Part shown: piece by piece, positions 1,700 through 58,730 of the stretch
How positions within the stretch are numbered: position 1 is the first letter of the stretch
Layout of the letters: each line of letters opens with the position of its first letter
Notes under the pieces: generated by a model
The model's database searches: none
The model's input: the letters and a program-made list of their open reading frames with translations, nothing else
Told to the model about the DNA's origin: nothing
Made by a program: the position numbers and the translations under genes
Source: Hydractinia symbiolongicarpus
Taxonomy: Eukaryota > Cnidaria > Hydrozoa > Anthoathecata > Hydractiniidae
Length of the DNA stretch: 64,000 bases
Direction of reading: 5' to 3'
Assembly: GCF_029227915.1 (NCBI RefSeq)
Contig: NC_079887.1
Span: 18,227,650-18,291,649, forward strand

Positions 1700-4600
1700 T
1701 CAATGGTAACCTGAGGAGGCACGTGGAACCACGTGATTTAAGTGTGAGGCTTTTATTAAGCATCCAAACACCATGTTACGGTCTTTAGAGGTCTGTACAC
1801 GTAGTTGACGGTGTTATAAAGCCATGGCGCAATGGAAAACGACTTGGGACGTCGTAATCTATTGAGAGTGGAAGGATTAGACCAATGGTAACCTGCGCAG
1901 GCACGTTGAACCACGTACTTTACCTGTAAGGTTTTTATTGGACATTACAAGGCCATACTACAGCGTTAAGAGGACTGTGCGCGTAGTTGACGAAGTTGTA
2001 AAGAAATGGCACAATGGAAAACGACTTGGGACGCCGTAGTCTAATGAGAGTAGAAGGATTAGATGAATGGTAATCGGCTCGGGCAGGTGGAACCACCTGA
2101 TTTATTTGTAAGGCCTTTATTAGGCGTAAAAAGGCCACATTACGGCCTTTAGGGGCCTGAAAGCGTAGTTGACGGTTTTATAAGGCTATCGCGCAATGGA
2201 GAACGCTTTGGAACGTCGTAGTCCATTGCCAGTGGAAGGACTAGGCCAATGGTAACCTGCGCAGGCACGTGGGACCACATGATTTACGTGTAAGGCCATT
2301 AATAGGCGTAAAAAGGCAATATTACGGCCTTTATTGGCCTAAACGCGTAGTTGACGGTTTTATAAAGCCATCGCGCAATGGAAAACAATTTGGGAAGTCG
2401 TAGTCTACCGAGAGTGGAGGGATTAGACCAATGGTAACCTGCGCACGCACGTCGAACCACGTGATTTACGTGTAAGACTTTTCTTACGCATCACAAGGCC
2501 ATATTACAGCGTTTCGAAACTGTGCGCGTAGTTGACGAAGTTGTAAAGAAGTGGCGCAATGGAAAACGACTTGGTACGCCGTAGTCTAATGAGAGTAGAA
2601 GGATTAGATCAATGGTAACCTGCACAGGCACGTGGATTAACGTGATTTAACTGTAAGGCTTTTATTAAGCATCAAAACACCACATTACAGTCTTTAGAGG
2701 CGTCTACACGTAGTTGACGGTGTTATAAAGCCATGGCGCAATGGAAAACGACTTGGCACGTCGTAGTCTAATGACAGTAGAATGATTAGATCAATGGTAA
2801 CCTGAGGAGGCACGTGGAACCACGTGATTTAAGTGTGAGGCTTTTATTAAGCATCCAAACACCATGTTACGGTCTTTAGAGGTCTGTACACGTAGTTGAC
2901 GGTGTTATAAAGCCATGGCGCAATGGAAAACGACTTGGGACGTCGTAATCTATTGAGAGTGGAAGGATTAGACCAATGGCAACCTGCGCAGGCACGTTGA
3001 ACCACGTATTTTACGTGTAAGGTATTTATTGGGCATCACAAGGCCATACTACAGCGTTTAGAGACCTGTTCGCGTAGTTGACGAAGTTGTAAAGAAATGG
3101 CACAATGGAAAACGACTTGGGACGCCGTAGTCTATTGGGAGTAGAAGGATTAGATCAATGATAACCTGCGCAGGCACGTGGAATCACGTGATTTAAGTGT
3201 AAGGCTTTTATTGGACATCACAAGGCCATACTACAGTGTTTAGAGGCCTGTGCGCGTAGTTGACGAAGTTGTAAAGAAATGGCACAATGGAAAACGACTT
3301 GGGACGCCGTAGTCTATTGAGAGTAGAAGGATTAGATCAATGATAACCTGCGCAGGCACGTGGAATCACGTGATTTAAGTGTAAGGCTTTTATTAAGCAT
3401 CAAAACACCATATTACAGTCTTTAGAGGCCTCTACACGTAGTTGACGGTGTTATAAAGCCATGGCGCAATGGAAAACGACTTGGCACGTCGTAGTCTAAT
3501 AAGAGTAGAAGGATTAGATCAATGGTAACCTGAGCAGGCACGTGGAACCACGTGATTTAAGTGTAAGGCTTTTTTTAAGCATCCAAACACCATATTACAG
3601 TCTTTAGAGGTCTGTACACGTGGTTACCGGTGTTATAAAGCCATCACGCAATGGAAAACGACTTGGGACGTCTTAATCTATTGAGAGTGGAAGGATTAGA
3701 CCAATGGTAACCTGCGCAGGCACGTTGAACCACGTACTTTACCTGTAAGGTTTTTATTGGACATCACAAGGCCAAACTACAGCGTTTAGAGGCCTGTGCG
3801 CGTAGTTGACGAAGTTGTAAAGAAATGGCACAATGGAAAACGACTTGGGACGCCGTAGTCTAATGAGAGTAGAAGGATTAGATGAATGGTAATCGGCTCG
3901 GGCAGGTGGAACCACCTGATTTTTTTGTAAGGCCTTTATTAGGCGTAAAAAGGCCACATTACGGCCTTTAGGGGCCTTAAAGCGTAGTTGACGGTTTTAT
4001 AAGGCTATCGCGCAATGGAGAACGCTTTGGAACGTCGTAGTCCATTGCCAGTGAAAGGACTAGGCCAATGGTAACCTGCGCAGGCACGTGGGACCACATG
4101 ATTTACGTGTAAGGCCATTAATAGGCGTAAAAAGGCAAAATTACGGCCTTTATTGGCCTAAACGCGTACTTGACGGTTTTATAAAGCCATCGCGCAATGG
4201 AAAACAATTTGGGAAGTCGTAGTCTACCGAGAGTGGAGGGAGTAGACCAATGGTAACCTGCGCACGCACGTCGAACCACGTGATTTACGTGTAAGACTTT
4301 TCTTACGCATCACAAGGCCATATTACAGCGTTTCGAGCCTGTGCGCGTAGTTGACGAAGTTGTAAAGAGGTGGCGCAATGGAAAACGACTTGGTACGCCG
4401 TAGTCTAATGAGAGTAGAAGGATTAGATAAATGGTAACCTGCACAGGCACGTGGAATCACGTGATTTAACTGTAAGGCTTTTATTAAGCATCCAAACACC
4501 ATATTACAGTCTTTAGAGGCCTCTACACGTAGTTGACGGTGTTATAAAGCCATGGCGCAATGGAAAACGACTTGGCACGTAGTAGTCTAATGACAGTAGA

Positions 4601-32440: not shown

Positions 32441-32696
32441 AAACACTCAAAATTGTTTTGTTAAAGATTTATACATGGCTAGAAAACGTCATGTTATACT
32501 CACCTTAACATGTGAAAACACACAGAAACTAAATAATCCTATAGGATACAAAGTACTCAGAAGAAAAAAGGATCAAAAGGAGACATACAAATTTCAAACC
32601 ATCACTTCCAAACCAAAATGACCTTTGTAGGGGTAGCATGTTTCCTCCGTTGGCATGTTGAGGCCGCGAAAAATAGTCTATATTTTGCAAAAGTGA

Positions 32697-35499
32697 CATC
32701 GATAAGGCCCGTGGAAAAATCCACTTAGGCAAAAGGCCAATGAAAAATAGGTTGCTTTAGATGTGTTGCTGACGTCAGTAGTGCATATACAAAAAAAAAT
32801 GTTCTAAAATCTTACATCAAATGTCAAATTGCATTAAATCCTCCACACAAATCTTACACAAAGTAAAAAAGAACAGTTTGCAAGGTGTAAAATATAGTTG
32901 ATAAAAAGTTACAACAACGACACTCACAACATCGACACTCACAACACCAATACTCACAAAACCGACAGTAAGAACACCGACAGTTAGATAATAATAATCT
33001 CAGAAATAACGCATCTCAAATATGTACATCTTAAGTGATTACGTTGAAAACCCTCAGTATTTTATTCTGAAATGTCAAAAAGGAGGCCTGCAAGAGTTAG
33101 CGCAAATCAACAAATATATAAGTCATTTTACACATTTTAAATATTGTCTTTCCCTTAAAAGATTATACAAAAATATGAAAAAGCCATAGTTTCGAAAACA
33201 TCAAATTTAAATCTAGAAAAATCAGTCATTACGGTTGGATACCATCCTCTCCCACAAAAATTTACACAAAATGTAAAAATCAACCAGTTAAGAACACAAA
33301 AATTTTCCTTTTTAGTTCCGTACTGCCCCTTACCAACAATTTTAAACCTAAATGTCAAAAAATCAATGAGCAAAGAATAAACTTGAATCAACAAAGATCA
33401 TTATTTTGGAAACATTGTATATGGTTCGTAAACAAAAGTTTACACAAAATGTAAAACAGATCGGTTTTTGAGAAACACATCTAAATCAACAAAAATAAGT
33501 TCATTCAGCATGTCGTATATTGCCATTACCCATTAATCTTCTACAAAAAGGTTATAAAACACATCAAAATTTAAAAAAATCAGTGTTCAGTGCATACAGT
33601 CCTCGCGTTTAGATTACAAAATATAAAAAACAAAAACAGTTTCAGTCAGAACATTAAGTATATAATTTTTTATTATCAGCAAACATTTATCCCTACAAAA
33701 TTTTGTAAAATTCTCAAGAAAAACAAAAACGTGAAACCATGGAATTTTCTTCCAGCAAAAATTACATCACATACAGTTAGTTCTCCCAAACAATAATTTA
33801 TAATACGAAATATAAAGACAAAGTTGTTTATATAGTCTGAAGATGTACTTAGTGTACAAAAAGCTTAACAAATAAATACTTTTTAACTTTCAAACTCGTT
33901 TTATTTTTTCTTAATTAGTAAAATATGGCTGTTATTTTTACCGATAAAGACATCAGCTTTACAACAGCTTACAGTGAAGTCTGATTCTACAAAGATTTGT
34001 TCTTTCAGTATATATATTGCATGTGGTCTATTTCCACAAAAGTTTACACAAAATTTCAAAAAAACAGCATTTTGCAACACGAACAACATAAACTGACAAC
34101 CATACCATCCTCTCAAAAATGTTTTTAACCCAAAGTCATAAACCCACGTATATATAAATTTCCAATCAAATGTCAAAAACCCTTGTAAAAAAACCTGGCA
34201 TTTTACATGTAGGCTGACAAAAGTTTAACAGGATGAGGAAACAAAACAATAAAAAATAACTTAATACACACACTTTAAATTCTATAAAATTTGTTCCACT
34301 TGTCATATTGTGGTCCCCTTGTAAAGTTTACAGGAAATGTAAAAAAAATTATTCTCTGTGGGCATAAAAATGTGTCACAGTATCCTAAAAGTTCAAGAAA
34401 GATTTTGTAGCTATAGCTTGTTGTTACATCATAATTCGTGTTCAAAAAAGAAGAGAAGTTTGAGTACTAAGGTAGCTATAAATACATAAAAAAAGAGGAA
34501 TAACGACAAAACTCATAGATTAAAGCTAGCTATGGGATGGAGCCTTGAAGCTAACATTAGCTAGCCAGCTAACAAAACAGTACCTAAGACACCCAGTTAA
34601 ATATACTTAAGCTGGGGAGACTTAGCTAAGTCTATAGCTAGCTGTTTATGCTTAGTAAAACATATATAAAGGAAAACAATAGCAATGTAAAAATTATGAC
34701 ATTTGCAGTTAGTTCAACAAACCAAAACTTTCTATTTCGCTGGCACATTTGTTTGGTAGCCAGCTAACAGCTTTATGCAGCATTTTAAATTTTAGGACAA
34801 ATACATTAGTTACGCACCGGGGGATACATTAATTATGCAAAAAACAGTAAATGCTAGCTTTTTTATAAAAAACGCGGTAAAACATAAAACTTAAAGAATT
34901 TGAAGCTTTTAAGTGACTTTTTCCTGGCAAATGCGAGTCTGCCTGACACGTAACTCTAGCGACATAAAAACATAACGTCTAAAAATATCAAACTTCTTAC
35001 TATATGTGAATCCAAATCGACTTTAAACCCAAGCTTTTATTTTCTACTTCTAACTTTTCTTTACTACTTCTAGCTGCACTCTTCACTTTCGAAGTAACTT
35101 CTCGTGGCTTCTAACTTTACTTTTGTACTTCTACTTCTCCACTTTTACTTTTCTTGCTTTTAATATCTGCACTTTTTTGTGACTAAGGGATCGTCGAAAA
35201 TAAGACATTTTTTAACCGCTTCTTCAGTTCGCCTTTTGTGTCGAGAACTTTGTCGAGAAATTTTTATGTTTGTTTGTTTTTACGCTAACGGAACTTTTTA
35301 TTCGAATGCCGTCCCGTTCGAAAGTACGTATTTGAACGAATCATACTGCTTATTTTCTATCACGTGATTTCTAACGGTTGCGAGACAAATGTAAACAAAA
35401 CAAAAAAACTCGAAAAACTCGCGCATTCGGGTGGTAAAAAATATCGTGTTTGCAAAATTGACAGACAGACACACGGAACTGGCTTATTATTATAAGAGA
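32697..35499 (-). mobile_element. Helitron A, nonautonomous, 2.8 kb
   Basis: On the minus strand the 5' end is A|TCTCTTATAATAATAAGCC at 35,499. The 3' end has the GTGGATTTTTCCAC hairpin followed by GGGCCTTATCG near 32,700, but the usual ACTAG is replaced, so the last few bases look lost or mutated. The interior is collinear with Helitron B and with the element at 54,594-57,962. It includes a block of 'cgacactcacaacac' short repeats near 32,920-32,985 and a 'cttctaacttt' repeat near 35,040-35,155. No Rep or helicase coding sequence is present, so it depends on proteins supplied elsewhere. Confidence 0.75.
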
Positions 35500-44131: not shown

Positions 44132-46379
44132 CTAGTCGATAAGGCCCGTGGAAAAATCCACTTAGGCAAAAGGTCAATGAAAAAATAGGTTGCTTTATAT
44201 AGATGTTTTGCTGACGTCAGCAGTGCATATACAAAAAAAAAATGTTCTTAAAATCTTACACCAAATCTCAAATGTCAAATCGCATTAAATCCTCCACACA
44301 AATCTTACACAAAATAAAAAAAAACAGCTTGCAAGGTGCAAAATCTAGTTGGTAAAAAGTTACAACAATGACACTCACAACATCAACACTCACAACACCC
44401 ACAAAACCGACAGTAAAACACCGACAGTTACAACACCGACAGTCACAACACGGATAATAACAATGTTAGAAATAACGCATCTCAAATATGTATATCTTAT
44501 AAGTGATTATGTTGAAAACCCTCAGTATTTTATTCTGAAATGTCAAAAAGGAGGCCTGCAAGAGTTAGCACAAATCAACAAAAATAAGTTCTTTACACAT
44601 TTTAAATATTATACAAAAATATGAAAAAGCCATAGTTTGGAAAACATCAAATTTAAATCTATAGAAAAATTTACACAAAATGTAAAAATCAACCAATTCA
44701 GAACAAAAAAAATTATTTTTTAGTATGATGATCCATACTGCCCTTTACCAACAATTTTAAACCTAAATGTCAAAAAATCAATAAGCAAAGAATAAACTTG
44801 AATCAACAAACATTGTATATATACGGTTCATAAACAAAAGTTTACACAAAATGTAAAACAGATCGGTTTTTGAGAAACACATCTAAATCAACAAAAATAA
44901 GTTCATTCAGCATGTCGTATATTGCCATTACCCATTAATCTTCCACAAAAAGGTTATGAAACACATCAAAATTTTTAAAAAAACAGTCATTTCAGTGCAT
45001 ACAGTCCTCGCGTTTAGATTACAAAATATAAAAAACAAAAACAGTTTCAGTCAGAACATTAAGTAATTTTTTTATCATCAGCAAACATTTGGTATAGTAT
45101 ACGAAATATAAAGACAAAGTTGTTTATATAGTCTGAAGATGTACTTAGTGTACGAAAAGCTTAACAAATAATTACTTTTTAACTTTCAAACTCGTTTTAT
45201 CTTTTTCTTAATTAGTAAACTATGGCTGTTATTTTTACCGATAAGGACATCAGCTTTATAACAGCTTACAGTGAAGTTTGATTCTACAAAGATTTGTTCT
45301 TTCAGTATATATATTGCATGTGGTCTATTTCCACAAAAGTTTACACAAAATATCAAAAAACAGCATTTTGCAACACAAACAATATGAACTGACACCCATA
45401 CCATCCTCTCATAAATTAAAATAAAGTCATAAACCCACGTAAATTGCCAATCAAATGTCTACAAAACCCTGTAACAATAACCTGGTATTTTACATGTAGG
45501 CTGACAAAAGTTTAACAGGATGTCAGAAACAAAACAATAAAAATAACTTAACACACACGCTTTAAATTCTGAAAAAAATTATTCCACTTGTCATATTGCT
45601 TGGGTCCCCTTGCTAAGTTTACAGGAAATGTGAAAATAATTATACTCTCAAAAAAATACATCCTACTATCCTGCAAAAGTTCAAGTCTTTGAAAGATTTT
45701 GTAGGTAGCTAGCTAGCTTGTTACATCATAATTCGTGCTCATAAAAGAAGAAAGGTTTGGAAACTAAGGTAGCTAGCTATAGATAATTAAAAAAGAGGAA
45801 TAACAACATAAGTCATAGGTTAGGGCTAGCCATGGGGGGGATGGGAAGAGTAGGATCTGGAGGCTATAACATTAGCTAGCTAACAGTAGCTAAGACACCC
45901 CCAGTTAAATATACTTAAACTGGGAACATTTAGCTAAAACTAAAGCTAGCTATTTATGCTTAGTAAAACACATATAAAGAGAAACAATAGTAATGTAAAA
46001 ATAATAACATTACAGTAAGTTCAACAAACCAAAGTTTTCCGTTTGTTAGTCAGCTAACAGCTTTATGTAGCATTTTGAATTTTTAGGACAAACACATTAG
46101 TTACGCGCCAGGGGATACATTAATTATGCAACAAAAACATAAACAAATATGGTGGCTAGGTTGTTTTTTTAAAAAAGCGGTAAAAGTTAGCCGTTAAATT
46201 TATTTCAGCAAATCAAATTGAGTCGTTTTCATCACGTGACGTAAACAAAGTAAACCCGCTAGCAAAATGGACAAAATTTTTTCGGCAACATCAAAGAGAA
46301 TTTCGGCAACATCAAAGGAAAATGACGATATCAACTTTGCCTGTTACAGACACACGGAACTGGCTTATTATTATAGAGA
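44132..46379 (-). mobile_element. Helitron B, nonautonomous, 2,248 bp
   Basis: Both ends are intact. On the minus strand: A|TCTCTATAATAATAAGCC at 46,379; the GTGGATTTTTCCAC hairpin, GGGCCTTATCGACTAG at 44,132, then T. Removal leaves an A|T host site. The body is collinear with Helitrons A and 54,594-57,962. The 5' end lies directly against the C-terminal end of the Penelope-like element. No Rep/helicase ORF is present; minor open frames shared with the other copies reflect sequence identity, not proven coding. Confidence 0.88.
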
Positions 46380-47965
46380 TAGTCAATATGCGCCTACGGT
46401 ATTCATCTTTGGTATTAAGTCCAGGTTTTATTGGCTTGGTCGCTAGGAATTTAAGAATCAATAATTGTGTTATTGTTCTCGCTGTACTGATAATAGACAC
46501 ATGTTCCATTTTTAGTTTAATATCACATTCCATAGGGTACGAACGGTTTTTGTCGGGTTCGAGTGTTCTTTTAGTCGGGTGATCATATGTCGGTCAGTCT
46601 GACCAACATAGCAAGCTTCGCAACTTGGACAAACAATATAGATACCATACGACGTTTCACTCGTCAACCTTTGCCTTGAGCGATGGAACTGATTTCAGCT
46701 TTCAAATGGTAAATATAACTTTGCTCAGAGCATTCATTCGCTTCAACGAGGAATTTTTCAGAACATTTCCCTCTGTATTGTACAAAAATCATTTTCTCCT
46801 TAACAGGTTCTTTTTCGCCGTCCTTTACATTAGTTCTTTCTAGATTGATAAAGTTGTCGATTTTATTATCGGATCATAAAAATACGGAGGGTACTGATTA
46901 ACCATTCATGGGAATTTTTCCATGAAATACAGTCACTGTGAATTCTGTGGATGAATCCTGAAACAACTGATCTCTTATATCTTTGTGGTGGAAGTACATG
47001 ATAGTTCATCCCCGTTAACCCGGTTGGCTTGAATAACACGTAAATGATATCTTTGTTCTAGTCTGCAGCATCTTCATGACAAGAAATGGAAGTGTCTGGT
47101 CTTTTTTCTTCTTGATAGTAAATTGTAAAGACGGATGTTAATCATTGACTTCGCTCAATTTCATTTCAATTAAATTTCGATTAATGTTCCGCATGATATC
47201 GTCCATATAACGTACGTATAAGGTAACGTTAATCGAACTTACTCATCGAGCCATTTGCAACCATTGGTTGCTGTTGGACTCCCCATGGCGAGGCTGTCGG
47301 TTTGCAAATAATATCAGTTATTTGTCAGCATCAAAACGTTACAACTACAAATTTCATGCTCTTAAATGTTTCTCTATCCACAGGTGGTGTCGGGTATCTT
47401 CCAGAGAACAGAAGATCTGTACAATGACTGATGGCTTCGTTCACCGGTACATTCGTGTACAGAGATTTTACATCAAAGCTAATAATTTCATCGCATTCAC
47501 TTAGTTCGATATTTTTTAAACTATCTGTTATCTGTTTTGATAACGTATCTATGTTGCATTCAGGAACAACTTCTAACCTATCAGCTACTTGACAAGCAAT
47601 TTTGTAAAACGCTGAGCCAGGCATCGATAGTACAGGTCGTGAAGGCACGTTATCCTTGCGAATGTTAGCAAGACCATATTATACCACCGGTACTTGGCTA
47701 CCACGACGTTTCAGTTTTTTGTACAGTTCCTGACTAACTTTTCTTTATTCAATAGCTCTTTCAAAAAAATTACTGATCTTTTCTTCCTCCTTAAGAATTG
47801 GGTGTTTGGCATTTTTTCCTTGGTGGCACATACTTTTCGAATTGCAAAAGTCGAGTATGTATCGCAGTTTATTCTGGTAAGTTTTAGTTCACATTAGACA
47901 AATTCCAATACCTTCATCGAATTGAACGGCTATTAAATCATTTTCCTTCAGATACGTAGATTGAG
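46380..47965 (-). pseudogene. Penelope-like retroelement, RT plus GIY-YIG remains
   Basis: Minus-strand fragments in order: LKENDLIAVQFDEGIGICLM (about 47,955-47,893), an RT N-terminal block; RPVLSMPGSAFYKIA... and ISFDVKSLYTNVPVNEAI (47,640-47,440), RT core; YMDDI (47,209-47,195), the polymerase active-site motif with both Asp present; then GIYIVCPSCEACYVGQT followed by RLKEH (about 46,640-46,560), a GIY-YIG endonuclease start; and a C-terminal PGLNTKDEYRRRI. RT followed by C-terminal GIY-YIG is the Penelope-like order. Several frameshifts and stops separate the pieces, so it is dead. The 5' part is missing. Its 3' end abuts Helitron B at 46,379. Confidence 0.88.
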
Positions 47966-49641: not shown

Positions 49642-49900
49642 TACCAACCAGCATTTATGTCTACCGCGAACACCATATAGTGAAAAATAAATCGAGAAAT
49701 AGTATTTGTATCTATATTTTTTAACGAGTATTTGTATATAGATTTTTTTTTAACCTATGGTTTTACTTTTTTGACGGTACTTTTTTTAAAATCCTATCTT
49801 GTAGAGTTGTTGGGGGTAATTTCGCATCGTGTCAGTACGTACCACAAAGGTAGGTCAAAGCTGATTAAGCGTTTCGAGAATATTTTTTGGCATAAGCTGC
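49642..49900. other. Spacer between convergent Harbinger genes
   Basis: AT-rich, no recognised gene. It may contain the extreme C-terminal codons of the minus-strand transposase, which I cannot delimit. Confidence 0.4.
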
Positions 49901-50090
49901 ATTTGCAGCAAATCAGGATGATCACCTTATTAACTTAACAATAATCACGAAGAACAAAATACCAGTATAATAACTCCAGAGCAAAACCCAAATCACCATC
50001 AACACAGCAATTAAAATTCTTCACCGTATTTTCAATTGATCAAAAGCACATTCAATTTGAAATGTGCACGGCGTAAGTTATCATTAAACA
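49900..50090 (-). pseudogene. Harbinger (PIF) transposase, C-terminal piece
   Basis: Read on minus from the Helitron border: MFNDNLRRAH, then after a small shift IECAFDQLKIR, a stop in place of a likely Trp, and RIL; then a fragment like YFVLRDYC. The pattern FN..LR.AR..IE.AF..LK.RW.IL followed by FVLHN.CE is the C-terminal part of the DDE_4 (HARBI1-type) transposase and includes the final catalytic Glu region. The N-terminal neighbour of this piece is at 57,963-58,135, on the far side of the Helitron block. Confidence 0.78.
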
Positions 50091-50827
50091 CTAGTCGATA
50101 AAGCCTGTGGAAAAATCCACTGAGACACGATAAAAAAAAAAAGCGTTATTTGAATTTTGATGACGTCAGCAACCCATCCACACAAAAAATAATTCAGAAA
50201 CCTGTTTTTACGTTGCCTCTATTGTGTAGAGCTTAAAGCGCCGATCAAGAAAATGTATATGAACATGCGCTTTTGATGAGCGGTTAATGAGATATAAGGG
50301 TTTAAAAATTTTGCTGACGTCAGCAAATAGCCCGTTAAAACCTTAATTCTTTTTTTGAAATTTGTAAGCCTGGTGCCTTCATCGCATAGATCTTGAAACG
50401 CTGATCAAGAAAATGAATAGGATCATGTACTTTTGATAAATGGTTGCAGAGATATTAGGGTTTAAAGATTTTTTGAGGACGTCATCAACCCGTCCATTCC
50501 GAAACGGATTCGGGGACCAAGGTTTGGGAAACTTACCCAAATTGGTCCCAAGTGGTCCCTAGTTACCCACGCGGTGAAAAATCCATGACGCAACCACCTT
50601 GTTTCCAAGTTATTTGGCCTCAAAGTTTTAGGTGAACTATAATGGTTTCATCAATTTAGTATAACATATTGACGTTACAGTAGTGTTATTGACGTCGCGT
50701 CGTAACGTCATAAAATTTAACATTTGAGACACTGTTTTCGGCGACTTTTTAAAAATTTAGGCGACATCAAAGGAAAATGACGATATCCACTATGACCGTC
50801 ACATACACTTCGCATTATTATATAAGA
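50091..50827 (-). mobile_element. Helitron E1, short family, 737 bp
   Basis: 3' end: GTGGATTTTTCCACAGGC hairpin zone then TTTATCGACTAG (minus strand). 5' end: TCTTATATAATAATGCG. The body has 'tgacgtcatcaacccgtcc' and 'ttacccacgcggtgaaaaat' blocks shared with the elements at 50,828, 53,336 and 53,853. Noncoding. Confidence 0.85.
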
Positions 50828-53335
50828 CTAGCCGATAAGGCCCGTGGAAAAATCCACTTAGGCAAGAAAACAATGAAAAATAGGTTGTTTCAGATGTTTT
50901 GTCGACGTCAGCAGTACATATAGAAAAAGATTTGCCGAAAATTTGTTCATTCGTAGCCTCTATTATGTAGAGCTTAAAACGCTAATCAAGAAAATGTATA
51001 TGATCATGCGCTTTTGATGAGCGGTTAATGAGATACTAGCCGAATTCCCGTGGAAGAATCCACTGAATCTCTCATTAAACTGATGTAAGGGATACCATAC
51101 AAAAACATACAACAGTAATTTGAATTTTTAAAACTCACATTTCAACCTCCACCCCGGCTCTTTGTCTCTTTTATAACGGGATGGCAAAAAGAGAAAAAGC
51201 CTTGGGATCGAGGTTGCTCACAATCTGCACTATTCTATGTTTATAAACGCTGAAATAAAAATCTAAAAATATAAGTATGTGCAACAACAAAAAATAATAA
51301 AAAAATAATAATGTCCAAAAATATCAAAGGCGTAAAACAACCGTTACGTAAAAAGCGGAATACGCCAAAACTATATACTTGCTTTGCCGTTCCAGAAGTA
51401 CACCAGGAAAAAAAAGGATACCAAACATCAAAAAAAATCCAACATTTTTTGTTAAGTCATACAAAATCAGCTATTTAGTCTGTTGCATACGGCAAACCTT
51501 TCAAAGTTATACTCAAACTATAATAATTGAAAACACATGAAAAAGAGAAATATAAAAACTTGAATCATTTGGTATATTGTATATCTACAAAAATATTTTA
51601 ATCCAAAATATTAAAAAACAGTTTGCTTTAACAGACCCAAACTTATAATCAAGAAAATCACGCATAAAATCAAAGAAGATAACAATGCAGTGTTTTCGAA
51701 TTTAAGAATCGAATATTATTCAAACGATCGTAACGTAACAGATGTAGACATTGATTTAAGTTTAGGATTTAGGTTTAGGTTTTTTATAACGACATCAACA
51801 CTGAATCACACAGTCTGTAGTATTAAAAACATTAACCACGGAAAAATTACTTTTTACAGTTTATGTAAATTCTTCTCTAGGGTATACACGCTGTTTTTAT
51901 AAGAATAGTGTGTTTTAGTTTCAGCCTTTATGTTCTTAACTTTTTTGACAAATGCTATCCTCATTATTCTCAATGTTCTTAACATGACTATGGTCTGAAA
52001 ATATATAATGCCTTAATAAAATAAAGCATGCTATAAGTTACTATAGCTAGCTAATGGCAATTCTACTACATGTAACGGCCCATTGCTTGGACACAAAAAA
52101 GTTTAGTTCGTTTGATATACAATAAAAAAAGTAAAACTTCTAATCAATTTTGTGCGTCATACAAATGTTCATATTCAAACTATCAAGCTCAGACATATTC
52201 TTCGGATATTCTAAACTTCTCACCCACTTTTCAGAGTATATTCTTACAAAATAAGTGCTTAAAGGAAATATTTTTCGGCTCAAGACACAACAACAAACTT
52301 AATATTTAAAGAAAAAATTTAGCTCTGAAAGAAACGGCTAAAAAATCGTTATACACCCAAATTCAATTCTCTATCAAAATTTTAGAGAACACACCTGCTT
52401 TTCTTTCGCTTTCTCAGTAGTCCAATCGGTTTTTTACTTCGAGAACTAAATTTCGCTTCATCCCAAAGAGAACGAATTGAAAATGTATAGCTACAATTGT
52501 CTGATGCATTTCCAATCAATTCTTTTTGTGATGTTATATCATCGTACGTTTTTCTTCGTTTTAAAAAATATTTCTGACAACAACATTATTAATTTCGTTC
52601 GACAACAACAGTTTGTTTTTTACATTTTAAATTCGAATTACATTACAGCCATATTAGAATGCGATACAATCTCGGTCCCAGAACACAAAAATGTAAAATA
52701 TAGAAAAACATATAAGCTTTAAACTAACCTCATGATGATTAAACATTAGCATGCTTTGTTTGAAGTAACTTTTTTCAGGATTAACATGAAAAACAGACTA
52801 CCTTCATCGCTTCGGTTTTCTTTTTTCAGTTGATAAACAACTTGTTTCCATGAGATACGGCGATACAAATTTAGAAATTTGTATACCTGTTGCCTTCATC
52901 ATCGTATAGATCTTGAAACACTGATCAAGAAAGTGTATAGGATTATGTACTTTTGACAAACGGTTGCAGAGATATTAGGGTTTAAGGCTTTTGATGACGT
53001 CATCAACCCGTCTATTCCGAAACGGATTTGGGGACCCGGGTTTGGGAAAATTACTCAAATTAGTCATAGGTGGTCCTTAGTTACCCACGCGATGAAAAAT
53101 CATTGACGTCACCACCTCGTTTCCAAGTTATTTGGCCTCAAAGTTTTAGGTGCACTGTAATGGCTTCATTAATAATATAAGATATTGACGTTAAAGTAGT
53201 GTTAATGACGTCGCGCCGTAACGTCAGAAAACTTAACATATTAGACATGCATTTTTCGGCAACATCAAAGGAAATAAACACATCCACTTTGCCTGTTACG
53301 GACAGACACACACAGTCTCCGTATTATTATATAAA
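50828..53335 (-). mobile_element. Helitron E2, short family, split by a nested Helitron
   Basis: CTAGCCGATAAGG hairpin end at 50,828; ...gtattattatataaa at 53,335. The family body runs to 'cggttaatgagata' at 51,035, is interrupted by 1,820 bp, and resumes at 52,856. Net length is 688 bp, close to its 737- and 741-bp relatives. Confidence 0.78.
51036..52855 (-). mobile_element. Helitron E3, different family, nested in E2
   Basis: On the minus strand it ends with hairpin GTGGATTCTTCCAC, GGGAATTCGGCTAG, and begins A|TCTCATGGAAACAAG at 52,855. Its interior is unlike the other elements. It has minor open frames such as 52,477-52,722 (+), but none with a recognised domain. Excising it brings 'gagata' to 'tacggcg', resembling the family's uninterrupted 'gagatataagg'. 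It could carry captured DNA; origin unknown. Confidence 0.6.
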
Positions 53336-53852
53336 CTAGTCGATAAAGCCCGTGGAAAAATCCACTTAGACAGGATAACAGAGAAAAACAACCGTCATTT
53401 AAATTTTGATGACGTCTGCAGAGACATGTCAGAACACAAATTTTTTTTTTTTAAAATGTGTATGCCTGTTGCCTTCTGACAAACGGATGCAGAGATATTA
53501 GGGTTTGAAGGTTTTTTTATGACGTCATTAACCCGTCCATTCCGAAACGGATTTGGTGACCCAGGTTTGAAAAACTGACCCAAATTGGTCCCAGGTAGTC
53601 CCTAGTTACCCACGCAGGAGATGACGTCAGTTATGTCCACCTGTTTCCAAGTTATTAAGCCTTAAATTTAAAAGTGCAATGCATTGGCTTCACTAATCTT
53701 AATATACTTTCCTTTGACGTCAATATTGCTTTAACGTCAAAGTTTGCTAATTTAAAGAAGAAATTTATAGGCGATGTTTTTATAGACTTTATCAAAGAAA
53801 TTTTATCCACTTCGCAAAAGTCACAGACAGAAGCTCCGTATTATTATATAGA
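53336..53852 (-). mobile_element. Helitron E5, short family, 517 bp, internally deleted
   Basis: Hairpin end CTAGTCGATAAAGCCC at 53,336; end ...gtattattatataga at 53,852. It has the same blocks as the 741-bp neighbour but lacks about 220 bp of the interior. Confidence 0.85.
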
Positions 53853-54593
53853 CTAGTCGATAAGGCCCGTGGAAAAATCCACTTAGGCAGAAGGACAATG
53901 GAAAAGTAGGTTGTTTTAGATTTTTTGCTGACGTCAGCAGTTCAATTACAAAAATATTTGGCGAAATTTAGTTTATTCGTTGCCTGTACTATGCAGATGT
54001 TAAAACGCTGACCAAGAAAATGTATATGATCATATCTTTTTGATAAGCAGTTAATGAAACATAAGGGTTTTAACATTTTGCTGATGCCAGCAATGGCCAG
54101 TCAAACCCCCCAAATTTTTTTTTAAAAAATTTGTATACCTGCTGCCTTCATTGTATAGGTCTTGAAACGCTTATCAAGAAAATGTATAGGATCGCGTATT
54201 TTTGACAAACGGTTGCAGAGATATTAGAATTTGAAGGTTTTTCGATGACGTCATCAACTCGTCCATTCCGAAACGGATTCTGCGACCCAGGTTTGGGAAA
54301 ATTACCCAAATTGGTCTTAGTTGGTCCCTAGTTACCCACGCGGTGAAAAATCATTGACGTCACTACCTCGTTTCCAAGTTATTTGGCCTCAAAGTTTTAG
54401 GTGCACTGTAATGGCTTCATTAATTTAATATAGGATATTGACGTTAAAGTAGTGTTATTTTCGTCGCGTCGTAACGTCAGAAAATTTAACATATTAAACA
54501 TGCATTTTTCGGCAACATCAAAGGAAAATGAAGACATCCACTTGGCTTGTCACAGACACACAGACAGACACACCTAGCGTATTATTATAGAGA
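53853..54593 (-). mobile_element. Helitron E6, short family, 741 bp
   Basis: Hairpin end CTAGTCGATAAGGCCC at 53,853; end ...gcgtattattatagaga at 54,593. Nearly full-length match to the 737-bp element at 50,091, with TGACGTCA palindromes and the 'ccgaaacggattc' block. Confidence 0.86.
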
Positions 54594-57224
54594 CTAGTTG
54601 ATAAGGCCAGTGGAGAAATCCACTTAGGCAGAAGGACAATGGGAAAATAGGTTCTTTTAGATGTTTTTCTGACGTCAGCAGTGTATATACAAAAAAATGT
54701 TCTTAAAATCTTACACAAAATGTCAAATATCAAATCACATTAAATCCTCCACACAAATCTTACACAAAATAAAAAAGAACAGCTTGCAAGGTGTAAAATC
54801 TAGTTGATAAAAAGTTACAACAACGACACTCACAACATCGACACTCACAACACTAAACTCACAAAACCGACAGTAAGAAGACCGACAGTTACAACACCAA
54901 CAGTCACAACACGGATAATAACAATTTCAAAAATAACGCATCTCAAATATTTACATCTTATAAGTGATTATGTTGAAAACCCTCAGTATTTTATTCTGAA
55001 GTGTCAAAAAGGAGGCCTCCAAGAGTTAGGAAAAATAAGTTTTTTACACATTTTAAATATTGTTTTTCCCTTACGCTTATACAAAAATATGAAAAAGCCG
55101 TAGTTTGGAAAACATAAAATTTAAATCTAGAAAAGTCAGTCATTTTAGTTGCATTACCATCCTCTCCCACAAAAATTTACACAAAATGTAAAAATCAACC
55201 AGTTAAGAACACAAAAATTTTCTCTTTTAGTTCCGCACTGCCCTTTACCAACAATTTTAAACATAATTGTCAAAAAATCAATGAGCAAAGAATAAACTTG
55301 AATCAACAAAGATTATGTGTAGAGCTTGAAACACTAATCAAAATAATGTTAGAATCAAGTACAACACTAACAATAATAATAAAGTCAGAAATAACACATC
55401 TCAAATATTTACTTCGTTGAAAACCTTTAATATTTCAATCAGAAGTGTCAAAAAACTTCAAATTTATATCTGGAAAACATTTATTCAATTACATACTATC
55501 CTGTTTCCCAAAAATATACACAAATTGTAAAAATTAACAGGTTAAGAACACAAAAAAATTTTCCTTTGTATGATGATCTGTAGTTACCTTTACCAACCAT
55601 TTTAAACGTGAAAGTCAAAAATAAATAAGGAGTAAATTTGAATCAACAAAGATATTACTTTTGGAAAACAAAGTGTATATACGGTCCGTCCTCACACAAG
55701 TTAACACAAAATGTAAAACAGATCGGTTTTTAAGGAGCACATCCAAATCAACAAAAATCAGTTCATTTAGCATGTTCTATATTGCTATTGCCCATAAATC
55801 TTCCACAAAAAGGTTATGAAACACATCAAATTATAGAAAAATCAGGCATTTCATAAAATATAAAAAACAAAAAAGTTTTTTCATCATCACCAAACACAGT
55901 TATATATTACCACAATTATAAAATTCTTAACAAAAACGTGAAACCATGGAATTTTCTTCCAGCAAAAATGACATCACATACAGTTTAGTTCTCCCCAACA
56001 AAAGTTTATAATACGAACTATGAAAAAGCCATTAGCTTACACAACAGCCTTTAGTGGAGGCCAATTCTACAAAATTTGTGCTTTCAGTATAGTGCATGTG
56101 GTCTTTTTCCCACAAAAGTTTACAGAAAATTTTAAAAAACAGCAGTTTGCAACACAAACAAAAACACGAACAACCTTCCCGAACCGAACGACCATCCTCT
56201 CATAAATTAAAATAAAGTCAAAAACCCATGTAAATTTCCAATCAAATGTCTAGCTACACCCCCCTGTAAAAATAACCTGGCATTTTACATGTAGGCTGAC
56301 GAAAGTTAAACAGGATGTCAGAAACAAAACAATAAAAAATAACTTAACACACACGCTTTAAATTCTGGAAAAAAAAAATTCCACTTGTCATATTGCACGT
56401 GGTCCCTTTGTAAAGTTTACAGGAAATGCGAAAAGAAATATAAAATACATCTGCAAAAGTTCAAGTCTTTAAAGATTTTGTAGGTAGGTAGCTAGCTAGC
56501 TTGTTACATCATAATTCGTGCTCATAAAAGAAAATAAGTTTGGAAACTAAGGTAGCTAGCTATAGATAATTAAAAAAGAGGAATAACAATATAAGTCATA
56601 GGTTAGAGCTAGCCCATGGAGGACAACATTAGCTAGCTAACAGTAGCTAAGACCCCCAGTTAAATATACTTAAACTGGGAACACTTAGCTAAAACTAAAG
56701 CTAGCTATTTATGCTTAGTAAAACCTCCACCAAGTTACCAAGATTTTCTTATTTCCAAATCTCGTTTAGACATATCGAACCATACGATAATCTCTGAGCC
56801 TCCACAGTGAGCCTTCCTATGCTTGGGTTTTATATTATAGAATTTTTTTTTTTTTTTTTTATATATATATATATATATATATAGTTATCACATTTCAAAA
56901 AAAAAAAAATCCTTATTATGCAATAAGTGCTGGCTGCTACGGTTTCAATGAGCTGTTTATTTCAACACAGCCAACGTTTTATCTCTAACGAAGTCTTTCA
57001 GAGTCGAAGGAGACCTTCCGCCGATATACAACTATAGCCTATGCCTTTCCTCTATTTAATCTATCAACAACCATTTAACAAAACCTAAATCTACAACTCT
57101 TATTGAAACCTAGATCTCCATGCTTCTTGTATCATTTTTGTTCTAAACTTTTTATTCTTATTGTTGTTATTATTATGTTATTATAGGGATAATAACCATT
57201 GTATAATGGAACCCGAATAAATGT

Positions 57225-57260
<36 letters not shown>

Positions 57261-57962
57261 GGAGAAACAATAGTAATGTAACATTACAGTGATCAGTAAG
57301 TTCAACAAACCAAAGTTTTCCGTTTGTTAGTCAGCTAACAGCTTTATGTAGCATTTTGAATTTTAGGACAAACACATTAGTTACGCACCAGGGGATACAT
57401 TAATTATGCAACAAAAACATAAACAAATATGGTGGCTAGGTTTGTTTTTAAAAAAGCGCTAAAATATGAAACTTCAAGAATTTGAGGCTTTTCTTGGAAA
57501 ATGCGAGTCTGCTTGCTCCAGTGACATAAAAACTAAACGTCTAAAAACATCAAAGTTCTTACTATTTGTGATTTCAAATCCACTTCAACCTCTAGCTTCT
57601 ATTTTCTTCTTCTAACTTTACTACTTTACTTCTAGCTCTAGCTACCACTTCTCACTTCATTTCTTGGACTTTTCTTTCTCTGAATTACTTTTTGCAATTT
57701 TTCAAGACGAAGGGGCTGTTTTCTTGTTGTTGCTTTTGTGTCGAGGGTTACCATTTTTCGGGAGTTAGCCGTTAAAATTTTTTCAGCAAATCAAGTTGCT
57801 TCATTTAGATCACGTGATGTAAACAAAGTAAACCCGCTGGCAAAATGGATATAACTTTTTCGGAGACTTCAAAGGAAATTTCGGCTACATCAAAGGAAAA
57901 TAAACACATCCACTTTGCCTGTCACAGACAGACGGACACACTCTCCGTATTATTATAAGAGA
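54594..57962 (-). mobile_element. Helitron E7, long family, 3.4 kb, with an insertion
   Basis: Same family as Helitrons A and B: 'cgacactcacaacac' repeats near 54,820, the 'aaggaggcctccaagagtta' region, a 'gctagctagctt' stretch, 'ggggatacattaattatgca' and 'cttctaacttt' repeats near 57,600. The 3' end is CTAGTTGATAAGGCCAGTGG at 54,594; the 5' end TCTCTTATAATAATACGG at 57,962. A poly(A)-tailed fragment of about 530 bp has landed at 56,725-57,255. No Rep/helicase gene. Confidence 0.86.
56725..57255 (+). mobile_element. Poly(A)-tailed retroposed fragment inside Helitron E7
   Basis: Comparison with Helitron B (45,961 onward, 'tagtaaaacacatataaag') shows extra sequence here. It begins 'ctccaccaagtt', contains a T18 run and an (AT)n tract at 56,843-56,882, and ends AATAAA (57,216), tgtc and A30 (57,226-57,255). 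This is the mark of a retrotransposed RNA: a 5'-truncated LINE tail, a SINE or a processed transcript. No coding domain was recognised, and the target duplication cannot be seen because of the A-run. Confidence 0.75.
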
Positions 57963-58135
57963 TTACTTCTTTTGCATTGTTGCAGGTAGCAAATCCCTTC
58001 ATTACATTGGGAAGTAATGGACATGCAGGATCTCCAATCACCAATGGCGGTACAGGTGTGTAACCAGGTACCAACTCTTGAAAACATAATAGATTACGCT
58101 CGCTGACAAAACTCTTTGCCACTGAACTTTTCAGA
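57963..58135 (-). pseudogene. Harbinger (PIF) transposase, central piece
   Basis: Minus-strand open frame: AKSFVSERNLLCF, then QELVPGYTPVPPLVIGDPAC, PLLPNVMKGFATCNNAKEV up to the Helitron border. The PPL.(L/I)GDPA(Y)PLLP..MK.F block is typical of DDE_4 (HARBI1-type) transposases and contains the second catalytic Asp (GDPA). The piece continues across the Helitron block into MFNDNLRRAH at 50,090. The N-terminal half, with the first Asp, is absent: beyond about 58,135 the sequence becomes a P-element-like fragment on the other strand. Confidence 0.85.
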
Positions 58136-58730
58136 ACAAGAGAGATGTTATACTCCTTGCGGACGAAATAAAAATCTTGGAAGATTTAGTGTTATATAAG
58201 CCCACAGGTGATTTAATTGGATATGTGGATTTAGGTAACACAGAACTAAATTATACTACTTTGAAAAAAAACTATGAATTTGCATCACACGTTTAGTATT
58301 TTAAGTTCCAAGTTACAATCCTATGAAATTCAAACTAGCCAATTTTGCCACTAAAAGTGTCACTTCCACTCAATCCTTCCCCTTACTCTGAAAGGCTTTT
58401 GTTCTTCTTATGGCTGTCAACTCTGACAGAGCTTCAGCAAACCGCACAATCTAATAAATACGTAAAAGCATGAGGCATTTATACCTGTAGATTACGAAGA
58501 GAAAAACATTGTTTATAAAACAAAAAACATATTTTCTTATGATCGTGAATTTTTTTTTATTTGTGATCAGTCGCACTCGGTAACACTGGCAGTAACAACG
58601 TTGCACATTCTGGTTCTAAAGATTTAGAGCTTCGCCTTCAGTTACATCCTAAAATTACTACTGAACACATAAGATTAACACCATTTCAGTATGTATGTCC
58701 GCCTTGCAGCATAAGTTTTAAGTACCACTG
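58136..58730 (+). pseudogene. P-element/THAP9-type transposase fragment, broken
   Basis: Plus-strand pieces in order: LLADEIKILEDLVLYKPTGD, then LIGYVDLGNTELNY; KFKLANFATKSVTSTQSFPL; VNSDRASANRTI, which matches the D-G-A-S-P-N-R catalytic block with G changed to R; VYKTKNIFSYDREFFFICDQ then SH, like the FF.DPPHL.K block; and LHPKITTEHIRLTPFQY. This order fits the RNase-H-like core of P-element/THAP9-type transposases. Several stops and shifts break it, and the THAP domain and C-terminus are not seen. At the left it meets the Harbinger fragment head-on. Confidence 0.72.

Follow-up and report, generated by a model that had tools for sequence, protein, structure and literature searches.

We analysed a window of 64,000 nucleotides from the hydrozoan Hydractinia symbiolongicarpus (C13:18,227,650-18,291,649) and carried out genome searches over the 480.9-Mb assembly, which comprises 76 contigs (designated C). 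Five Helitrons, all on the minus strand and arranged head to tail, fill positions 50,091-57,962 of this window, inside a copy of a PIF/Harbinger transposase. In the 5' to 3' direction of the minus strand they are E5, E4, E3, E2 and E1. That strand reads ...GAAGTAA|TCTCTTATAATAATACGG at the upstream border (57,963|57,962) and ...TTATCGACTAG|TGTTTAATGATAAC at the downstream border (50,091|50,090), with a host A before the block and a host T after it. The four internal junctions (54,594|54,593; 53,853|53,852; 53,336|53,335; 50,828|50,827) each read CTAG|T, with 0 bp between the members. All five members terminate in CTAG, of the canonical CTRR type, just preceded by a GTGGA...TCCAC hairpin (folding z -2.1 to -3.6), and four of them start with TC, the exception being E2 with TT. 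No closed stop-to-stop open reading frame of at least 120 residues is present within the block. Five end-to-end Helitrons with four zero-gap junctions had been proposed in an earlier reading of the sequence alone (called here the sequence-only reading), and the exact outer borders and internal junctions confirm that the block is real and correctly bounded.

PIF/Harbinger elements have terminal inverted repeats and a 3-bp target duplication. The upstream part of the split transposase lies at 57,963-58,260 and its downstream part, which harbours IECAFDQLKIR in another frame, at 49,900-50,090, both on the minus strand and both delimited by flank joining and alignment with empty copies. Joined across the block, the flanks form a continuous DDE-type sequence, followed by IECAFDQLKIR one frame over. 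The search with the joined flanks yielded 27 candidates, all of which were scored. Five of them, located on C8, C7, C15 (two copies) and C11, cross the junction uninterrupted at 73-83% identity, showing that the flanks are true neighbours. Alignment with these empty copies placed the insertion point between A and T with 0 bases lost or gained, in agreement with the outer target that had been proposed. The C8 relative, whose junction region is open in one frame, matches Pfam DDE_Tnp_4 (E=3.9e-26), as expected if a DDE_4 transposase has been split; the joined 89-residue piece of the less well-preserved window copy gave no Pfam match. The claim that excision restores the reading frame holds for the pre-insertion site only; the window copy also carries its own one-base shift and a stop. 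Judging from these alignments, the host sequence is a PIF/Harbinger transposase with a DDE_Tnp_4 domain, present in the window as a decayed copy that is a target only.

Canonical Helitrons are mobilised by a RepHel protein and insert at A|T with no duplication of the target, a mode of insertion that the empty-site alignment revealed for the block. Helentrons (Helitron2) are defined by T|T insertion and a different terminal structure; this assignment was ruled out by the A|T insertion and the TC...CTAG ends.

The block contains short and long Helitrons, as the sequence-only reading had recognised, except that E2 is not a member of the long family but a short element enlarged by an insert. A short-family profile of 727 positions covers E1 and E4 nearly whole, E2 in two pieces and E3 in shortened form. 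E1 (50,091-50,827, 737 bp), delimited by its ends and the profile, is a non-autonomous element whose 3' CTAG adjoins the host T at 50,091. Its closest relatives among the best 40 of 4,379 candidates are 87-89% identical, and it looks like the oldest member of the block. E2 (50,828-53,335, 2,508 bp) has model positions 1-460 at 52,870-53,331 and 519-727 at 50,828-51,036, separated by 1.8 kb; its nearest relative, in the limited pool of sequences at hand, is 91% identical. The insert (51,036-52,869, minus strand) is a nested Helitron of another family, recognised by its own 3' terminus, which comprises a hairpin and a CTAG (51,036-51,039) and is the sixth such Helitron end in the block. Its relatives in the fetched loci L012 and L022 are 70-83% identical, and its 5' end was not found. 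We do not accept an 8-bp repeat bordering the insert as a target duplication, because about 58 model positions of E2 are lost there.

E3 (53,336-53,852, 517 bp), identified by the profile and its relatives, is 97% identical to relatives over its first 375-380 bp but at best 89% over its full length, among the best 40 of 3,737 candidates; it is therefore probably a mosaic. E4 (53,853-54,593, 741 bp) is supported by its ends, the profile and 39 further near-full-length copies at 96-98% identity among the best 40 of 4,004 candidates, a similarity that identifies it as part of a young burst. The non-autonomous long-family member E5 (54,594-57,962, 3,369 bp), defined by its ends and relatives, has its 5' TC next to the host A. 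A C6 copy matches 724 bp of it at 97.8% identity, and relatives match parts of it at 98-98.6%; some 0.5 kb of additional sequence in E5 (56,724-57,248) has no counterpart in the aligned relatives.

The sequence-only reading called for a search for the same junctions elsewhere. We assembled 29 fetched loci (designated L) which, with the window, make 30 sequences; as the loci were reached through similarity searches, the fractions given below are not an unbiased census. Four of the five DNA searches scored the best 40 of about 3,700-4,400 candidates, and array copies may be over-represented among them. The profile located 78 3' ends in the 30 sequences, 74 of them with an intact CTAG. Of these intact ends, 54 run directly into a Helitron 5' end (48 detected by profile, six by eye) and 20 into host DNA. 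A pattern scan of the same sequences gave a gap of 0 bp between CTAG and the next 5' end in 50 of 70 cases and a gap of >60 bp in the other 20, with none between. Similarly, a Helitron neighbour is visible no more than 3 bp away in 26 of 40 E4-type copies, E4 included, and lies at exactly 0 bp in 24 of these; this compares with ~37 million AT dinucleotides in the genome, as extrapolated from the window. Neighbours are found upstream only in 12 copies, downstream only in 11 and on both sides in three, while 14 copies have none visible. The count of 26 is a lower bound, since the scan missed E4's own downstream neighbour, E3, and the 40 copies are near-full-length and ranked by score, hence biased toward intact ones. 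Arrays of this kind are thus numerous in the genome, and the block is not an isolated case. We recognised no report of mixed Helitron arrays at this scale in an animal within the literature and terms searched.

We then considered the kinship of neighbouring elements. Adjoining pairs were defined as profile matches within 16 bp of each other, which gave 33 pairs, including some truncated elements and one nested insertion (L030 1415/1861). In the tree and nearest-relative analysis, only one of the 33 pairs is mutually nearest. A one-directional test of 23 successive pairs, not all of them zero-gap, placed the neighbour at rank 7 at best among an element's relatives, and never first. Within the block, identity is 83% between E1 and E2, 68% between E2 and E3 and 66% between E3 and E4; E4 and E5 belong to different families, and hence there is no full-length comparison between them. 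Each of the four short-family members has closer kin elsewhere, with identities to members of other arrays reaching 93% for E3 and 96-97% for E4. Moreover, L020:4593-5328 and L023:3001-3736 are whole units that are 99.9% identical and exact at both ends, yet they have different neighbours. Non-sister neighbours and exact copies of single units together indicate that the arrays were built up as single elements inserted separately. We therefore interpret the block as a mixed Helitron array that arose through successive independent single-element insertions, each exactly at the end of a resident element, with a probability of roughly 0.8. The targeting of resident ends is itself probable.

Other origins of such blocks were weighed against the same data. 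If a Helitron failed to terminate, rolling-circle replication would copy it as a head-to-tail concatemer, and exact CTAG|TC junctions would follow; circles of Helraiser carry that very junction in the part of the work concerned with them (PMC5876387). Such multimers also match the single mutually nearest pair (L033 1291/1869, 96.9% identity). They are nevertheless very unlikely to have formed the block, given that 32 of the 33 adjoining pairs are not mutually nearest and that short-family neighbours in the block are far less similar to each other than E3 and E4 are to their relatives in other arrays. The sequence-only reading had already argued that tandem replication of one element does not suffice, and the nearest-relative and tree analyses led us to reject it as a general cause. 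The region of L033 at about 536-1681, as the sole mutually nearest adjoining pair, is a candidate for true tandem replication. Alternatively, transposition might begin at the 5' end of one Helitron and run on to the 3' end of a later one, carrying two or more adjoining elements together; the block would then have arrived partly ready-made. Helraiser is described as capturing flanking DNA in ~12% of events in the relevant passage of PMC4778049. In the present genome, the upstream neighbours of two E4-type copies on C5 (L043 and L051) are 96.4% identical to each other, and an E5-type element lies directly upstream of an E4-type element on C14 (L046, C14:3792411-3793250), the same pairing as in the block. 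However, the C14 pair diverges unequally from that of the block (93.9% over 734 bp for the E5-type element against 97% for the E4-type), which speaks for separate arrival, though read-through may apply to such pairs. Likewise, the upstream members of L029 and L030 are 97.8% identical and their downstream members 91.5%, and the 99.9% pair shows a near-identical copy between different neighbours. We thus consider this read-through unlikely for the block. The sequence-only reading had left the choice between serial insertion and read-through; the distant neighbours, the closer kin elsewhere and the single-unit copies favour serial insertion, while read-through may account for single cases.

A Helitron circle might also recombine homologously with a copy already in place, which would add another unit, exactly joined, without any choice of target. 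Zero-gap junctions would be automatic in such a process, and E3 and some neighbours do look mosaic, with 97% identity over one part and much lower identity over the rest. Two complementary chimeras would be expected, however, whereas the 26 E4-type copies with a neighbour within 3 bp are whole, which makes this origin improbable too. As to the assembly, repeats of this kind are difficult to assemble and may be collapsed or misjoined. An artefact is extremely unlikely, as exact junctions occur at many independent places, the members are diverged enough to be distinguished, and the outer flanks rejoin to a genuine Harbinger site.

Successive insertion at resident ends suggests the following series of events. 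A Rep/helicase supplied in trans would nick resident Helitrons at their left (A|TC) and right (CTAG|T) ends, and the single-stranded copy of an arriving element would be joined into the nick. Insertion at A|TC would push the host A outward and leave CTAG|TC behind. In the block, E1 was likely the first to arrive, followed by E2, E3 and then E4 and E5.

The order of insertion was examined along the block and in other arrays. In 18 of 21 cases a host A precedes the outer 5' end, and canonical A|TC insertion should thus leave the youngest element at the 5' side. Of the three exceptions, two have TAG at this place and may represent the ends of decayed Helitrons. Along the block, nearest-relative identity is ~98% for E5, 98% for E4, 97% (part) or 89% (all) for E3, 91% for E2 and 87-89% for E1. 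This gradient fits stacking on the 5' end, although E3, E4 and E5 are poorly separated. Several observations weigh against such an order or against the interpretation as a whole. One segment of E5 is only 94% identical to L038. Of 33 pairs, only 19 show a shorter terminal branch for the 5' member than for its partner, as counted by eye, and the comparison of 5'-most elements with those that have an upstream Helitron gave p=0.13 (13 vs 40). The comparison of upstream and downstream neighbours of E4-type copies, for which we used 11 upstream neighbours (of 13 fetched and 15 seen) and 12 downstream ones (of 12 fetched and 14 seen), gave a trend (one-sided p=0.051). Finally, both members of the 99.9% pair have older-looking 5' neighbours, with nearest relatives at 97% in L023 and ~96% within the pool in L020. 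Unless sources were missed or gene conversion occurred, some insertions would thus have taken place at the 3' end or at an internal junction. Ordering the insertions by divergence, as had been suggested, gives a result that fits stacking in the block; across other arrays the age order appears as a weak trend with no strict direction. Taken together, the earlier interpretation of the block is partly supported.

What directs Helitrons to these sites was addressed by comparing host flanks with Helitron termini. On the T side, positions 2-13 of the host flanks (n=20) are 90% A+T, the background value from 33,088 A|T sites being 66%. AATAAT occurs in seven of the 20 flanks, with 1.0 expected after A+T matching. 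The Helitrons' own 5' end, TCTATATAATAATACG and its variants, has the same layout as these flanks and ranks in the top 1-8% of background sites. The likeness of the A+T-rich T side to the elements' own 5' terminus may therefore help targeting. The target profile is weak, which also counts against our interpretation: when each host flank was scored with itself omitted from the profile, the median rank was the top 8.6%. Moreover, sites in the top 1-8% of the ~37 million AT dinucleotides number hundreds of thousands or more, against 3,737 to 4,379 candidate places. A+T-rich sites thus look too common to explain the preference alone, and we infer that the ends of Helitrons are themselves what is recognised, the simplest possibility being that Rep nicks them. 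A broader proposal, which we make tentatively and rate at somewhat less than an even chance, is that Helitrons of this genome land preferentially at resident Helitron ends, the transposase taking the sites at which it cleaves its own termini as acceptors, so that mixed head-to-tail arrays are a usual state of the family and each insertion keeps or adds sites. If ends are acceptors, Helitron damage would be concentrated in sites already occupied, and composite units could later move together.

Further Helitrons and repeats were detected in the window and in the sampled loci. Two solo long-family Helitrons are present on the minus strand of the window. One, a relative of E5 at 44,132-46,380, was delimited by end scans and alignment and has A|T flanks; the other, at 32,695-35,499, was found by an end scan and alignment and has lost its 3' CTAG. 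The latter is 98.5% identical to the long member of a mixed array on C3 (L016 205-3755), whose other parts are a short Helitron, sharing 99.3% identity with a Helitron of L015, and a further 5' end. The sequence TTCCATAGCGGCATGGCATAATAATACTG occurs six times over 14.5 kb on the minus strand of the window (12112, 13349, 16114, 18374, 21216 and 26643), one copy having a single change; these recurrences point to what may be another repeat array. On C4 (15823588-15838355), Helitron matches recur with equal scores at a spacing of ~2-5.2 kb, which suggests tandem duplication of a whole segment that carries Helitrons. Two arrays of opposite orientation on C5 (16724192-16725945 and 16731555-16733308), ~6 kb apart, have matching sets of matches and look like an inverted duplication. 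A pair of match sets similar to that of C5 is present on C2, at 5.96 and 11.48 Mb.

Tandem Helitrons are known in Myotis, Drosophila, rice, maize and Fusarium/Metarhizium, according to the section of PMC5148889 that deals with them. In its account of Metarhizium acridum, three copies are in tandem and insertion into the 5' end of a resident element was considered, as we propose here; in contrast with the present elements, the Fusarium/Metarhizium families are non-canonical fungal ones, and rolling-circle replication was left open for them (PMC5148889). The Hydractinia elements resemble Helibat/Helraiser of Myotis in their TC/CTAG ends, 3' hairpin, A|T target and A+T-rich left end, as far as the corresponding passages describe these features (PMC4778049, PMC5876387). 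The A+T preference reported there for Helraiser is strongest on the 3'-flank side (PMC4778049), in agreement with the host T-side flanks analysed here, while self-targeting through the left end is not raised in those passages (PMC4778049, PMC5876387). For head-to-tail Helitrons of bats, the generation of tandem repeats via rolling-circle replication was suggested, as quoted in PMC2267711. A close counterpart to our proposal is found in the back-to-back Helitrons of maize r1 (Du et al. 2008, PMC2267711), which are unrelated members joined at a zero-gap CTAG|TC junction and for which the portion describing this locus proposes consecutive insertion. Two options for that insertion are given there, namely at an AT formed by the host A and the resident T, or at a noncanonical GT at the 3' end (PMC2267711). 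Maize r1 differs from the present case in having two elements at one locus, as described in that portion, whereas here five elements and a nested one form the block and many other arrays exist. The origin of head-to-tail Helitrons, as multimers or by consecutive insertion, has so far been argued from few loci, as presented there (PMC2267711), and the many arrays with distinguishable members in Hydractinia turn this question into one of counting.

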